Below are positions 61,324 to 63,017 of a stretch of 64,000 nucleotides of DNA, in pieces; the stretch's first letter is position 1; every line of letters begins with the position of its first letter. Below the pieces are notes generated by a model. It worked only from the letters and a program-made list of their open reading frames with translations, was not told where the DNA came from and did not search any database. This stretch comes from an uncultured Flavobacteriaceae bacterium (GTDB lineage: Bacteria > Bacteroidota > Bacteroidia > Flavobacteriales > Flavobacteriaceae), in contig CANNAN010000001.1 in the NCBI GenBank assembly GCA_947502635.1, positions 62,001 to 126,000 on the forward strand, given 5' to 3'. The position numbers were made by a program, and so were the translations under genes.

Positions 61324-61463
61324 TTAGGACCATCTGTCTTAAGAAGGAAAGGAACTCTTTTGTTCAATAATCTTTGTTATTCCTTTGAAAAAAGGGAGCC
61401 CTTTTCATTTTAAAAATGATTTTTTAACTGAAGATAGCATACTAAAGACTGCATACTTTTTTA

Positions 61464-61471
61464 TATCTTCG
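61464..61471 (+). promoter_or_regulatory. Possible -7 element for the YqeY-like gene
   Basis: TATCTTCG, one base from TAnnTTTG, 20 bases before the ATG at 61492. No TTG at the expected spacing. Confidence 0.35.
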
Positions 61472-61491
61472 CAGTCAAAATAAATAAAACC

Positions 61492-61941
61492 ATGAGTTTA
61501 CAACAAGATGTCATGTCTGCTTTAAAAGAAGCAATGAAAGCCAAAGATCAAACAGCTTTAACGGCTTTACGTGCTGTGAAATCTGCTATTTTACTGGCTC
61601 AGACTGAAAGTGGAGCTAAGGAAGATTTAACAGAAGAACAAGAGCTTAAAATACTTCAAAAACAAGTAAAACAACGAAGAGATAGTGCTGCTATTTATTT
61701 AGAGCAAGGACGCGAAGATTTAGCAAGTCCAGAGTTGGCAGAGGCAGATGTTATTGCACAATTTTTACCAGAAGCTTTAACCGATGAAGAAATTGAAAAA
61801 GTAGTTGTTATGACTATTGATCAAATTGGAGCGGAAGGCATGAAAGATATGGGTAAAGTAATGGGCATTGTTAGTAAAGAGTTAGGTGGACAAGCAGATG
61901 GTAAAACAATATCTAATATAGTGAGACAAAAACTGTCTTAA
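61492..61941 (+). CDS. GatB/YqeY domain-containing protein
   Basis: 149 residues, the full length of the YqeY family. SLQQDVMSALKEAMKAKDQTALTALRAVKSAILLAQTE (2-39), LKILQKQVKQRRDSAAIYLEQGREDLA, EADVIAQFLPEALTDEEIEKVV, and GAEGMKDMGKVMGIVSKELGGQADGKTISNIVRQKL follow the family from end to end. It is related to the tail domain of the GatB amidotransferase subunit and may touch tRNA, but its function is unproven. It is followed after 35 bases by the tRNA-Arg fragment. Confidence 0.9.
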   Translation: MSLQQDVMSALKEAMKAKDQTALTALRAVKSAILLAQTESGAKEDLTEEQELKILQKQVKQRRDSAAIYLEQGREDLASPELAEADVIAQFLPEALTDEEIEKVVVMTIDQIGAEGMKDMGKVMGIVSKELGGQADGKTISNIVRQKLS

Positions 61942-61976
61942 ATAAGGCTCTTACCTAATACAGGAAGGAATATAAT

Positions 61977-62036
61977 GGCTGCGTAGTTCAACTGGATACC
62001 TGCCGGCCGGCAGGCAGGCAGGGAATATCAGATTTC
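61977..62036 (+). pseudogene. Truncated 5' half of tRNA-Arg, interrupted by a palindrome
   Basis: Bases 61977-61998 and 62024-62036 equal positions 1-22 and 24-36 of the intact tRNA-Arg at 62300, without mismatch. The identity also covers five bases upstream (ATAAT). At tRNA position 23 a 24-base GC-rich insert replaces nothing; the following G is shared. The copy stops after the second anticodon base (GATTTC) and runs straight into the leader of the GIY-YIG gene. It cannot form a tRNA. Confidence 0.9.
61999..62022. repeat. GC-rich palindrome inserted in the tRNA fragment
   Basis: CCTGCCGGCCGGCAGG is a perfect 16-base palindrome, followed by CAGGCAGG. It sits in the D-loop region of the truncated tRNA copy and is absent from the intact copy. 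The base composition is extreme for this AT-rich genome. CCTGCC/GGCAGG repeats are common as dispersed elements in flavobacteria, but copy number cannot be checked here. Confidence 0.75.
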
Positions 62037-62046
62037 ATTATATTAT

Positions 62047-62298
62047 ATGAAAGAGTATTTTAGTTATGTTTTAAAAAGTGATAAGGACGGAAGGTTGTAC
62101 AAAGGTCATACCGATGATTTAAATAAGCGTTTAATTGAACATAATAGTGGGAAAACTAAATCAACAAAAGGCTATATTCCATGGAGATTGGTATATTATG
62201 AAACATTTATAACACGAGAAGAATCTATATTAAGAGAAAAATATTTTAAAACAGGAAGTGGTAGAGAATTTTTAAAAGATACATTGCAAAATAAATAA
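62047..62298 (+). CDS. Minimal GIY-YIG nuclease-domain protein
   Basis: 83 residues, just one GIY-YIG domain (UvrC N-terminal/YhbQ-like). Candidate catalytic residues are complete: Tyr7 (SYV for GIY), Tyr18 in YKG (for YIG), Arg28, His32 and Glu64. FSYVLKSDKDGRLYKGHTDDLNKRL, EHNSGKTKST and EESILREKYFKTGSGREF follow the family. It starts 10 bases after the broken tRNA copy, and its stop codon ends one base before the 5' end of the intact tRNA-Arg. Flanking duplication suggests it moved in as part of a tRNA-targeting unit. It might alternatively be a host repair-type nuclease trapped by recombination. Confidence 0.88.
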   Translation: MKEYFSYVLKSDKDGRLYKGHTDDLNKRLIEHNSGKTKSTKGYIPWRLVYYETFITREESILREKYFKTGSGREFLKDTLQNK

Positions 62299-62299
62299 T

Positions 62300-62373
62300 G
62301 GCTGCGTAGTTCAACTGGATAGAATATCAGATTTCGGCTCTGAGGGTTGGGGGTTCGAATCCCTTCGCGGTCA
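62300..62373 (+). tRNA. tRNA-Arg (anticodon UCG)
   Basis: A 74-base cloverleaf: acceptor GGCTGCG pairs with CGCGGTC (two G-U pairs, at positions 2-71 and 4-69), discriminator A at 62373. The anticodon stem TCAGA/TCTGA surrounds loop TTTCGGC; anticodon TCG at 62334-62336. The T-arm contains GGGGGTTCGAATCCC. CCA is not encoded. The mature 5' end begins one base after the GIY-YIG stop codon, so the two are probably on one transcript split by RNase P. Confidence 0.93.
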
Positions 62374-62382
62374 CAAATAAAC

Positions 62383-62419
62383 AAAAGATCCAAACGTTAA
62401 ACGTTTGGATCTTTTGTTT
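62383..62419 (+). terminator. Intrinsic terminator of tRNA-Arg
   Basis: AAAAGATCCAAACG (62383-62396) pairs perfectly with CGTTTGGATCTTTT (62402-62415) around loop TTAAA, followed by G and TTTT. Confidence 0.92.
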
Positions 62420-62501
62420 TCAAAGCGGAGTTTTTGAAGATCGTAGATAATTCTTCCGCACTCACTAAATTTTAAAGTTTATACTCGAAAAATAATTAAA
62501 G

Positions 62502-62537
62502 AAAGCACTTCTATAATTTATATTATAGAGGTGCTTT
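62502..62537 (-). terminator. Terminator of the PixA/AidA-type operon
   Basis: AAAGCACTTCTATAAT pairs with ATTATAGAGGTGCTTT with a single G-U pair and a short loop. It begins seven bases after the stop of the minus-strand gene at 62544 and is T-rich on both sides, so it may work in both directions. Confidence 0.8.
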
Positions 62538-62543
62538 TCTTTT

Positions 62544-63017
62544 TTAAACTAGAGCTTCATTCCCATACAATCTTGGGTTTAAAACACCAGCGGTAATAGT
62601 GTAAATTAAGCCATCTGGTCCTTCTTGTGCAAAACCAAAAATACCATATTCTCCTTTTTGATAAATTTGATTTTCTCTCTTTTCAAAAGAGATAGCGGCC
62701 CATTTTCGAACATCAGATTGTTTAACAACTATTTTTTTAGTTGGATACTTTGTATCTGTTGAACAAAATACTTCTACTTCAAAAATGGCATCTTCTCCTT
62801 TAGCTGTAACAAGAAACCAACTGGGTGTTGCTGGTGCAGGTTTGTTCTCTCCTGGAGGGATTGGTAATTTTACATTTTCATTTATAGGAAAAGATCCTTG
62901 GCGTAAAATTCCATTTTCTGCTTTTATAATTTTGCAAACTAATTCGCTTCCGTCTGCAGCTCCTGGATCGTTTTGACTTAGAGCTGATAATTGAAATATA
63001 TTATTTTTAGCTGACAT
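62544..63017 (-). CDS. Unrecognised cytoplasmic protein paired with a PixA/AidA-family gene
   Basis: 157 residues, no signal peptide or membrane segment. The composition suggests an all-beta protein: PSWFLVTAKGEDAIFEVEVFC, KKIVVKQSDVRKWAAISFEKR, YGIFGFAQEGPDGLIYTITAG. A proline-rich loop (PIPPGENKPAPATP) lies near 53-66. No family recognised. It lies 40 bases downstream of the PixA/AidA-type gene on the same strand and shares its terminator, so the two probably work together. Only two cysteines; no catalytic motif seen. Confidence 0.75.
   Translation of the reverse strand: MSAKNNIFQLSALSQNDPGAADGSELVCKIIKAENGILRQGSFPINENVKLPIPPGENKPAPATPSWFLVTAKGEDAIFEVEVFCSTDTKYPTKKIVVKQSDVRKWAAISFEKRENQIYQKGEYGIFGFAQEGPDGLIYTITAGVLNPRLYGNEALV

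Follow-up and report, generated by a model that had tools for sequence, protein, structure and literature searches.

Group I introns with homing endonucleases are found in bacterial tRNA genes, often in the anticodon loop, and integrative elements with tRNA attachment sites encode an integrase and restore the tRNA at its 3' end. REP palindromes with their REP-associated tyrosine transposases (RAYTs) combine dispersed palindromes with a small nuclease gene, the transposases acting on the REP hairpins. SegB of phages T4 and T6 is a free-standing GIY-YIG homing endonuclease that cuts within tRNA genes and drives tandem amplification of the nuclease-tRNA segment, and hairpins are present in the leaders of T4 homing endonuclease mRNAs, including that of segB (accessible parts of PMC13096335 and PMC2988022). 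In the mobile ORFs of fungal mitochondria (Allomyces atp6; Glomus atp6, atp9, cox2 and nad3), a coding gene is invaded by an endonuclease gene and stays functional through a duplicate of part of its sequence (accessible part of PMC3630166). The accessible part of a paper on the GIY-YIG superfamily does not link any small GIY-YIG gene to tRNA genes (PMC1564403).

The unit that we describe here, from an uncultured Flavobacteriaceae bacterium, resembles each of these systems in part. Like SegB, it has an intronless GIY-YIG gene adjoining tRNA genes; SegB, however, is phage-borne and lies between tRNA genes, no broken tRNA copy or plug hairpin being described in the accessible text, whereas the unit is chromosomal, makes use of many tRNA genes and encodes a bare UPF0213-like domain. 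The fungal mobile ORFs, as far as the accessible text describes them, supply a foreign 3' (C-terminal) part, the native one remaining as a relic, whereas our unit duplicates the 5' part, which agrees with the resident gene, and has a tRNA gene as its target. Group I introns and the unit have tRNA targets in common, but the unit has no intron RNA and its tRNA is complete, so that no splicing is needed. With the integrative elements it shares the regeneration of the tRNA gene, but it lacks an integrase and duplicates the 5' end. It differs from REP/RAYT systems in having a GIY-YIG protein instead of a Y1 transposase, and in that its hairpin lies mostly at one tRNA base. The protein has the same single GIY-YIG domain as UPF0213 (PDB 1zg2 and 1ywl), its best match in both sequence and fold; these entries are named hypothetical proteins and state neither a mobile role nor a tRNA link. 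The preliminary description knew of no named system with this layout, and likewise we recognised no description of bacterial units of this kind in a full-text literature search; most subscription papers and all bioRxiv preprints lay outside its scope, and an earlier report elsewhere is possible.

The unit spans positions 61972-62374 of the window (the whole stretch of 64,000 nucleotides that was analysed) and consists of a broken 5' copy of tRNA-Arg, a GIY-YIG gene and an intact tRNA-Arg(TCG), as judged from the sequence, ARAGORN and the ORF call:

61492..61941, + strand: yqeY, the conserved upstream neighbour (Pfam YqeY, E 8.8e-46), used as anchor for the orthologous locus
61972..61976, + strand: five bases, ATAAT, ahead of the broken copy; they recur as a direct repeat at 62295-62299, ahead of the intact tRNA
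61977..61998, + strand: broken tRNA-Arg copy, bases 1-22, 100% the same as 62300-62321
61999..62022, + strand: GC-rich palindrome (hairpin) of 24 nt, inserted in the broken copy after tRNA base 22
62023..62036, + strand: broken tRNA-Arg copy, bases 23-36, 100% the same as 62322-62335
62037..62046, + strand: leader of 10 nt between the broken copy and the ORF, from the sequence
62047..62298, + strand: single-domain GIY-YIG nuclease gene, 83 aa, with a predicted UPF0213-like fold (ORF call, Pfam, structure model)
62300..62374, + strand: intact tRNA-Arg(TCG) (ARAGORN; Rfam tRNA, 59 bits), the sole match to this tRNA found in the genome

Two direct repeats, of 27 nt (61972-61998 and 62295-62321) and 14 nt (62023-62036 and 62322-62335), are both 100% identical and are parted by the 24 nt at 61999-62022 in the left copy only. 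The layout given in the preliminary description (a repeat of bases 1-36, a 24-base insert, five upstream bases and a GIY-YIG gene) is thus exact, and in the window copy identity does stop where it had been placed, between the second and third anticodon base. The pattern of the 24-nt palindrome gave 0 matches in 100 dinucleotide shuffles of the window. The ORF stops before the tRNA. GIY-YIG is the sole gene found in the unit and its single Pfam match, with neither an integrase nor a Y1 transposase present, and the duplicated part is bases 1-36, not the 3' end. Repeat analysis found no terminal inverted repeat in the window unit. RNA folding gave no signal in 61978-62374 (z-score 0.00) or in 61978-62049 (z-score -1.46), the first base of the relic being left out of both stretches, and a promoter scan, whose model does not include Bacteroidota promoters, returned 8 sigma-70-type sites against a shuffle mean of 4.9 (sd 2.2). 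A group I intron was rejected, since the tRNA alone scored above its gathering score in an Rfam scan of 61400-62700.

Searched with the protein, the same genome yielded six matches at E<=10. L002, the second of these in rank, is located at tRNA-Leu(CAA), where a 5' tRNA copy with a 20-nt palindrome insert is followed by a GIY-YIG ORF and an intact tRNA-Leu. The palindrome pattern occurs at four genomic places (<=2 mismatches), two of which are the Arg and Leu relics. Because the arrangement is found also at tRNA-Leu in this genome and at many tRNA genes in other genomes, a chance origin of the window arrangement is untenable. The remaining four matches (L003-L006) have no tRNA in their loci. 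In L003 (770-1800) the GIY-YIG gene sits between inverted palindromic repeats with 30-nt arms, and the repeat and gene fragments recur in tandem; in L004 (1340-1780) it is flanked by inverted palindromic repeats with 44-nt arms at 73%. Both loci resemble a REP-flanked mobile gene.

To compare orthologous sites we used 12 genomes of the same genus, its own included. yqeY has one match in each of the 12, every time with tRNA-Arg(tcg) downstream, and the tRNA-Leu(caa) and tRNA-Arg(tcg) genes likewise have exactly one match per genome in 12/12. The yqeY-tRNA-Arg(TCG) locus is occupied in two genomes (our own and G009) and empty in the other ten, just 40-209 nt separating yqeY from the tRNA at the empty sites. 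The broken copy, following the yqeY flank, occupies the native tRNA position of the relatives. In G009 three near-identical units stand in tandem with a period of 310. All 75 bases of the tRNA-Arg are identical to those of the window in nine genomes, namely both occupied ones and 7 of the 10 empty ones. At tRNA-Leu(CAA), 8/12 sites are occupied, one of these (G002) by a unit with a stop within the ORF; 3/12 are empty with a similar upstream flank, and 1/12 is an ORF-less scar (G004, L232), in which relic bases 1-12 are followed by a palindrome from a different family, then by seven tRNA bases and seven others, and finally by the intact tRNA. Close relatives are therefore polymorphic for presence and absence at both the Arg and the Leu target, and the empty sites that the preliminary description advised looking for do exist. 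The empty, occupied, broken and scarred states within the genus are as expected if a selfish gene is gained and lost in cycles. An ORF-less tRNA-Asn copy with two hairpins, one inserted in the D-loop and one replacing the anticodon arm, lies between two intact tRNA-Asn genes (L181, 1100-1700). The tRNA-Arg(TCG) at the Arg locus of G008 (L122) differs (77% over bases 6-75) and has a tandem repeat next to it, suggestive of gene replacement. A CCTGCC/GGCAGG palindrome is scattered in the same-genus genomes, from 0 places (G003) to about 40 (G008) per genome.

With regard to divergence, dS was calculated for 21 genome pairs both in the Leu units and, as a core reference, in yqeY plus part of ftsZ, each unit offering about 50 synonymous sites. 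In all ten pairs among G000, G001, G005, G006 and G007 the unit was less diverged than the core (for example 0.13 against 0.78 for G007-G006 and 0.22 against 0.71 for G000-G006), whereas in all 11 pairs involving G008 or G010 it was more diverged (for example 2.35 against 0.68 for G000-G010). The G010 unit has a dN of 0.21 to L219, which belongs to a different genus, and larger values, 0.32-0.34, to five units from its own genus. From this dS contrast and the closeness of G010 to L219, at least two unit lineages occupy one orthologous gene within one genus. That the divergence of the Leu units is out of step with core genes suggests transfer between species; a slower synonymous rate could explain part of the lower unit dS in the ten pairs. 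The Arg units of our genome and G009 are roughly core-like (dS 1.25 against 1.67; pN 0.254 against 0.092), which decides nothing. As to a vector, there was no plasmid match at E<=1e-8, the phage search gave six weak matches, all below 60% identity, and no PHROG, and no viral contig was confirmed in a scan with one peptide pattern; on these grounds phage or plasmid cargo was rejected. Among the outcomes that the preliminary description had named as speaking against a mobile unit is a 5' copy that lacks a nuclease gene; this outcome did occur, in at least two scars (G004 and L181).

Relatives were then sought by protein alone in genome contigs, yielding 101 confirmed relatives, of which the best 80 loci were kept. 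Among these best 80 of 101, a same-strand tRNA lies within 100 nt in 73 and within 400 nt in 77; in the other three (L046, L047 and L081) the available stretch ends just past the ORF. The earlier view of a minimal, intron-free unit tied to tRNA genes is supported. The search of other tRNA genes that had been proposed brought up the same arrangement at many tRNA types and in many genomes. The targets are chiefly tRNA-Arg with several anticodons, and also Pro, Leu, Met, Ala, Asp, Ser, Glu, Thr and Cys; in some loci (e.g. L067, L071, L103 and L108) the adjacent tRNA has no clear relic. The units are widespread: Bacteroidota supply most of the loci, and relic-bearing units occur as well in genomes titled Omnitrophota (L104), Margulisiibacteriota (L106), Berkelbacteria (L105), Doudnabacteria (L113) and WOR-3 (L098).

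Within the window's own family, 56 of 299 genomes had a match at E<=1e-15, and 70 stretches from this search were analysed, giving 86 ORFs. A tRNA lies downstream within 100 nt in 45 of these and within 700 nt in 15 more (many of them tandem arrays), upstream in 15 and farther away in one; none was called in 10, among which L155 (two ORFs) contains a tRNA according to Rfam and L223 a tRNA 3' part as seen by eye. Eleven of the 86 ORFs are situated 118-435 nt downstream of tRNA-Asn(gtt) with no convincing relic (e.g. in L189), and are perhaps a separate subgroup. A narrow relic pattern matched 8/299 family genomes; it was too narrow because hairpin sequences differ. In L221 and L222 (family genomes G034 and G269), related ORFs break what we take from its translated motifs to be an epimerase-like gene, at the codons of a GGAGF-IGS motif; a 5' relic lies upstream and a complete reading-frame start downstream, and short inverted ends are visible by eye. 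When the relic and functional 5' ends of L222 were compared with the single other genome of its genus, neither was clearly closer, so this comparison leaves undecided which copy is the native one. The strategy may not be confined to tRNA genes. The related ORF of L196 splits a conserved small gene; its inverted ends match as judged by eye, and a regenerated copy was not seen.

The anatomy of the units was examined using 131 of 145 units with a tRNA downstream within 900 nt, namely those whose relic reaches the acceptor stem. The relic starts at or near tRNA base 1, the upstream identity extending 0-6 nt in 59/67 units and 9-66 nt in the other 8. Its first seven bases are identical to those of the resident tRNA in 119/131 units and differ by one mismatch in 12/131; one unaligned base was allowed in these alignments and 14 units were dropped, so that foreign relics are possibly under-counted. 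The mean relic mismatch was 0.09 to the own tRNA versus 1.44 to other loci of the same isoacceptor, and related nucleases (75% identical) at tRNA-Arg(tct) (L069) and tRNA-Met (L060) each have a local 5' half, in L060 with one mismatch. Because relics match the resident tRNA and relatives at other tRNA types carry the local half, the 5' half is copied from, or homogenised with, the resident gene rather than imported unchanged. The proposal that the unit carries its own 5' half is hence not supported: all 131 testable units match the resident with at most one mismatch.

A hairpin was detected by a strict test in 108/131 relic leaders, as compared to 33/393 dinucleotide shuffles and 33/131 intact-tRNA stretches, and most of the other 23 relics show an imperfect palindrome by eye. 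It is the most constant part of the arrangement: its sequence and length vary (16 to 41 nt; e.g. 20, 28, 32 and 39), its site is mostly constant, and 76 of the 108 scored relics have it after tRNA base 21-23. The T-arm is replaced by it in most of the genus's tRNA-Pro units, and the anticodon arm in the distant L106, L113, L114 and L115, as judged by eye; second hairpins were found at tRNA bases 9-15. The 3' end of the relic, in contrast, varies. It ranges from tRNA base 19 to 74 (mainly 32-39) over the 37 Arg(tcg) units whose hairpin was scored, and L048 and L065 have complete broken copies. The cut in the anticodon that had been proposed from the window copy is therefore not supported, the recurrent point being the hairpin after base 21-23. 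Relic length differs from unit to unit, unlike the fixed short target duplication of an insertion sequence. The order is reversed (intact tRNA, ORF, relic) in L053, L056, L072, L087 and L092. Of the 111 units whose tRNA lies no more than 100 nt downstream, 74 have an ORF that reaches into this tRNA; its stop falls at tRNA bases 8-10 in 35 units and at bases 21-23 in 27. Unit size is 253-487 bp, with a median of 318. Two possible roles of the hairpin were weakened: translational control of the ORF, since the relic hairpin is downstream of the ORF in the reversed L053, L072, L087 and L092, and breaking of repeat homology against excision, since within each of the tRNA-Pro units L019 and L026 there is an unbroken match of 51 bases.

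The window protein matches Pfam GIY-YIG (PF01541; E 2.5e-12, 47.3 bits against a gathering score of 22.6) over residues 4-71 of 83. Y7, Y18, G20, R28, H32, E64 and K68 are present in at least 98% of 183 ORFs, and are invariant or almost so in a 53-row alignment (A1). AlphaFold2 predicted one confident domain (pLDDT 94.8), for which the top Foldseek match was UPF0213 BH0048 (E 5e-5), followed by Slx1, a structure-specific nuclease; UPF0213 was also the sequence match (1zg2, E 2e-7). NCBIfam and PHROGs gave no family at E<=0.001. Classical GIY-YIG homing endonucleases carry an extra DNA-binding module. Neither Pfam nor the predicted structure indicates a separate module for a long recognition site in the window protein, and 83 aa leave no room for one. 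Pairwise dN/dS among the eight Leu ORFs was 0.06-0.37 where computable, indicating that the nuclease is under purifying selection.

A quick tree with a simple model was made from 183 ORFs, 161 with a tRNA label and 22 with none; one identical protein pair had been left among 184 ORFs, and a genome may be represented twice. The tRNA isotype changes 21 times on this tree, compared to a mean of 67 with shuffled labels (minimum 62 of 300; 161 rows), and the nuclease lineage, as far as this tree reflects it, is linked with the type of tRNA. For the hairpin class 8 changes were counted, the shuffled mean being 43.9 (minimum 38; 94 rows); the classes are patterns written after the data were seen and 39 of 133 units, being unclassed, are excluded from the 94 tested. 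These two results are not independent, as hairpin class correlates with tRNA type. G010 contains one match to the palindrome pattern (<=2 mismatches) in its genome, and its relic holds one; this hairpin was accordingly not acquired from a surviving local repeat.

Taken together, we consider the unit to be probably an autonomous selfish element of tRNA genes, about 320 bp long, which resembles an intronless (free-standing) homing endonuclease cassette and regenerates its target. What is observed is that it is present or absent at two tRNA genes of the genus with native flanks outside, that it forms tandem arrays and decays, and that its 5' part matches the resident. In the mechanism that we propose, the 83-aa nuclease would cut or nick an uninvaded tRNA gene near the D-arm, and in other lineages near the T-arm or the anticodon arm, and recombinational repair would bring in hairpin and ORF. 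The resident tRNA's own 5' part would be duplicated in the process, the upstream copy becoming the hairpin-plugged relic and the downstream copy a complete tRNA from base 1. The plug most likely removes the cleavage site from the relic and would thus block re-cutting. Survival would be limited to products in which the downstream tRNA begins at base 1 and agrees with the resident acceptor stem, a filter that would account for both the base-1 start and the resident match. Transcripts would start at the native tRNA promoter, and RNase P would cut the tRNA off the nuclease mRNA, at whose end it lies. Several points count against homing. The functional tRNA is unchanged in both occupied and in 7/10 empty genomes, so that no protective change explains the sparing; gene conversion should import the donor 5' half, but the 5' half here matches the resident; and the protein is predicted to be one bare catalytic domain of 83 aa. 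No vector was found in the plasmid, phage and viral-contig searches described above, and 11/86 family ORFs, at tRNA-Asn, are without a convincing relic and 10/86 without a called tRNA. We also put forward, as a tentative idea with somewhat less than an even chance, that the units are a separate class among the smallest mobile elements (median 318 bp, one domain): a predicted structure-specific nuclease would read the hairpin arms of tRNA-gene DNA, the resident tRNA gene would provide the target, the promoter, the repair template and, in many cases, the stop codon, and the element would persist in single-copy tRNA genes across several phyla without intron, integrase or terminal repeats.

Since the protein is a single bare domain without room for a DNA-binding module, a structure-guided explanation was kept beside the homing-like one. 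Here the bare GIY-YIG domain is predicted to recognise not a long sequence but a DNA structure, namely single-stranded DNA in which a tRNA gene or a palindrome has folded out into a hairpin or cloverleaf, and would mobilise hairpin and ORF in the way that RAYTs act on REP hairpins, with the hairpin as working end. We regard this as rather unlikely. The best fold matches, UPF0213 and the structure-specific nuclease Slx1, agree with it, as does the hairpin in 108/131 relic leaders, above both the shuffle and the intact-tRNA controls. The hairpins vary in sequence and length and yet mostly share one tRNA base, their class tracks the ORF tree, G010 has a single palindrome-pattern match and its relic holds one, and two further GIY-YIG loci of our own genome are flanked by inverted palindromes. 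The window unit, however, has no end-to-end terminal repeat, and that the ORF tree also tracks tRNA isotype suggests some sequence recognition.

The structures could otherwise be the outcome of plain tandem tRNA duplication, a small mobile nuclease gene having landed between the copies and the redundant copy having decayed and gathered dispersed palindromes. The complete relics L048 and L065 would fit such a course, and so would the dispersal of like palindromes at 0 to about 40 places per genome and the ORF-less, hairpin-plugged tRNA-Asn copy between two intact copies in L181. We nevertheless find it improbable, for the order, the base-1 start and, mostly, the hairpin position recur at many tRNA types, the relic acceptors are nearly undecayed, and the hairpin class is inherited together with the ORF. 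There is an even slimmer chance that the gene serves the host, e.g. as a tRNA quality-control or phage-defence nuclease kept next to tRNA genes. Purifying selection would be expected of such a gene, and its UPF0213 relatives are cellular proteins with solved structures; but the gene is patchy at orthologous sites of one genus and has no fixed locus, tandem arrays and stop-containing and scar states occur, and no NCBIfam or PHROGs family was matched at E<=0.001.

With the selfish element as the preferred explanation, the unit shows how a selfish nuclease can inhabit a single-copy tRNA gene without an intron, the regenerated gene being left to the host. It is small enough for complete dissection, and it poses sharp questions, namely what an 83-residue nuclease recognises, how the resident 5' half is duplicated and why the hairpin sits mostly at one tRNA base. 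Units of this kind may also account for part of the tRNA fragments that adjoin tRNA genes in these groups.
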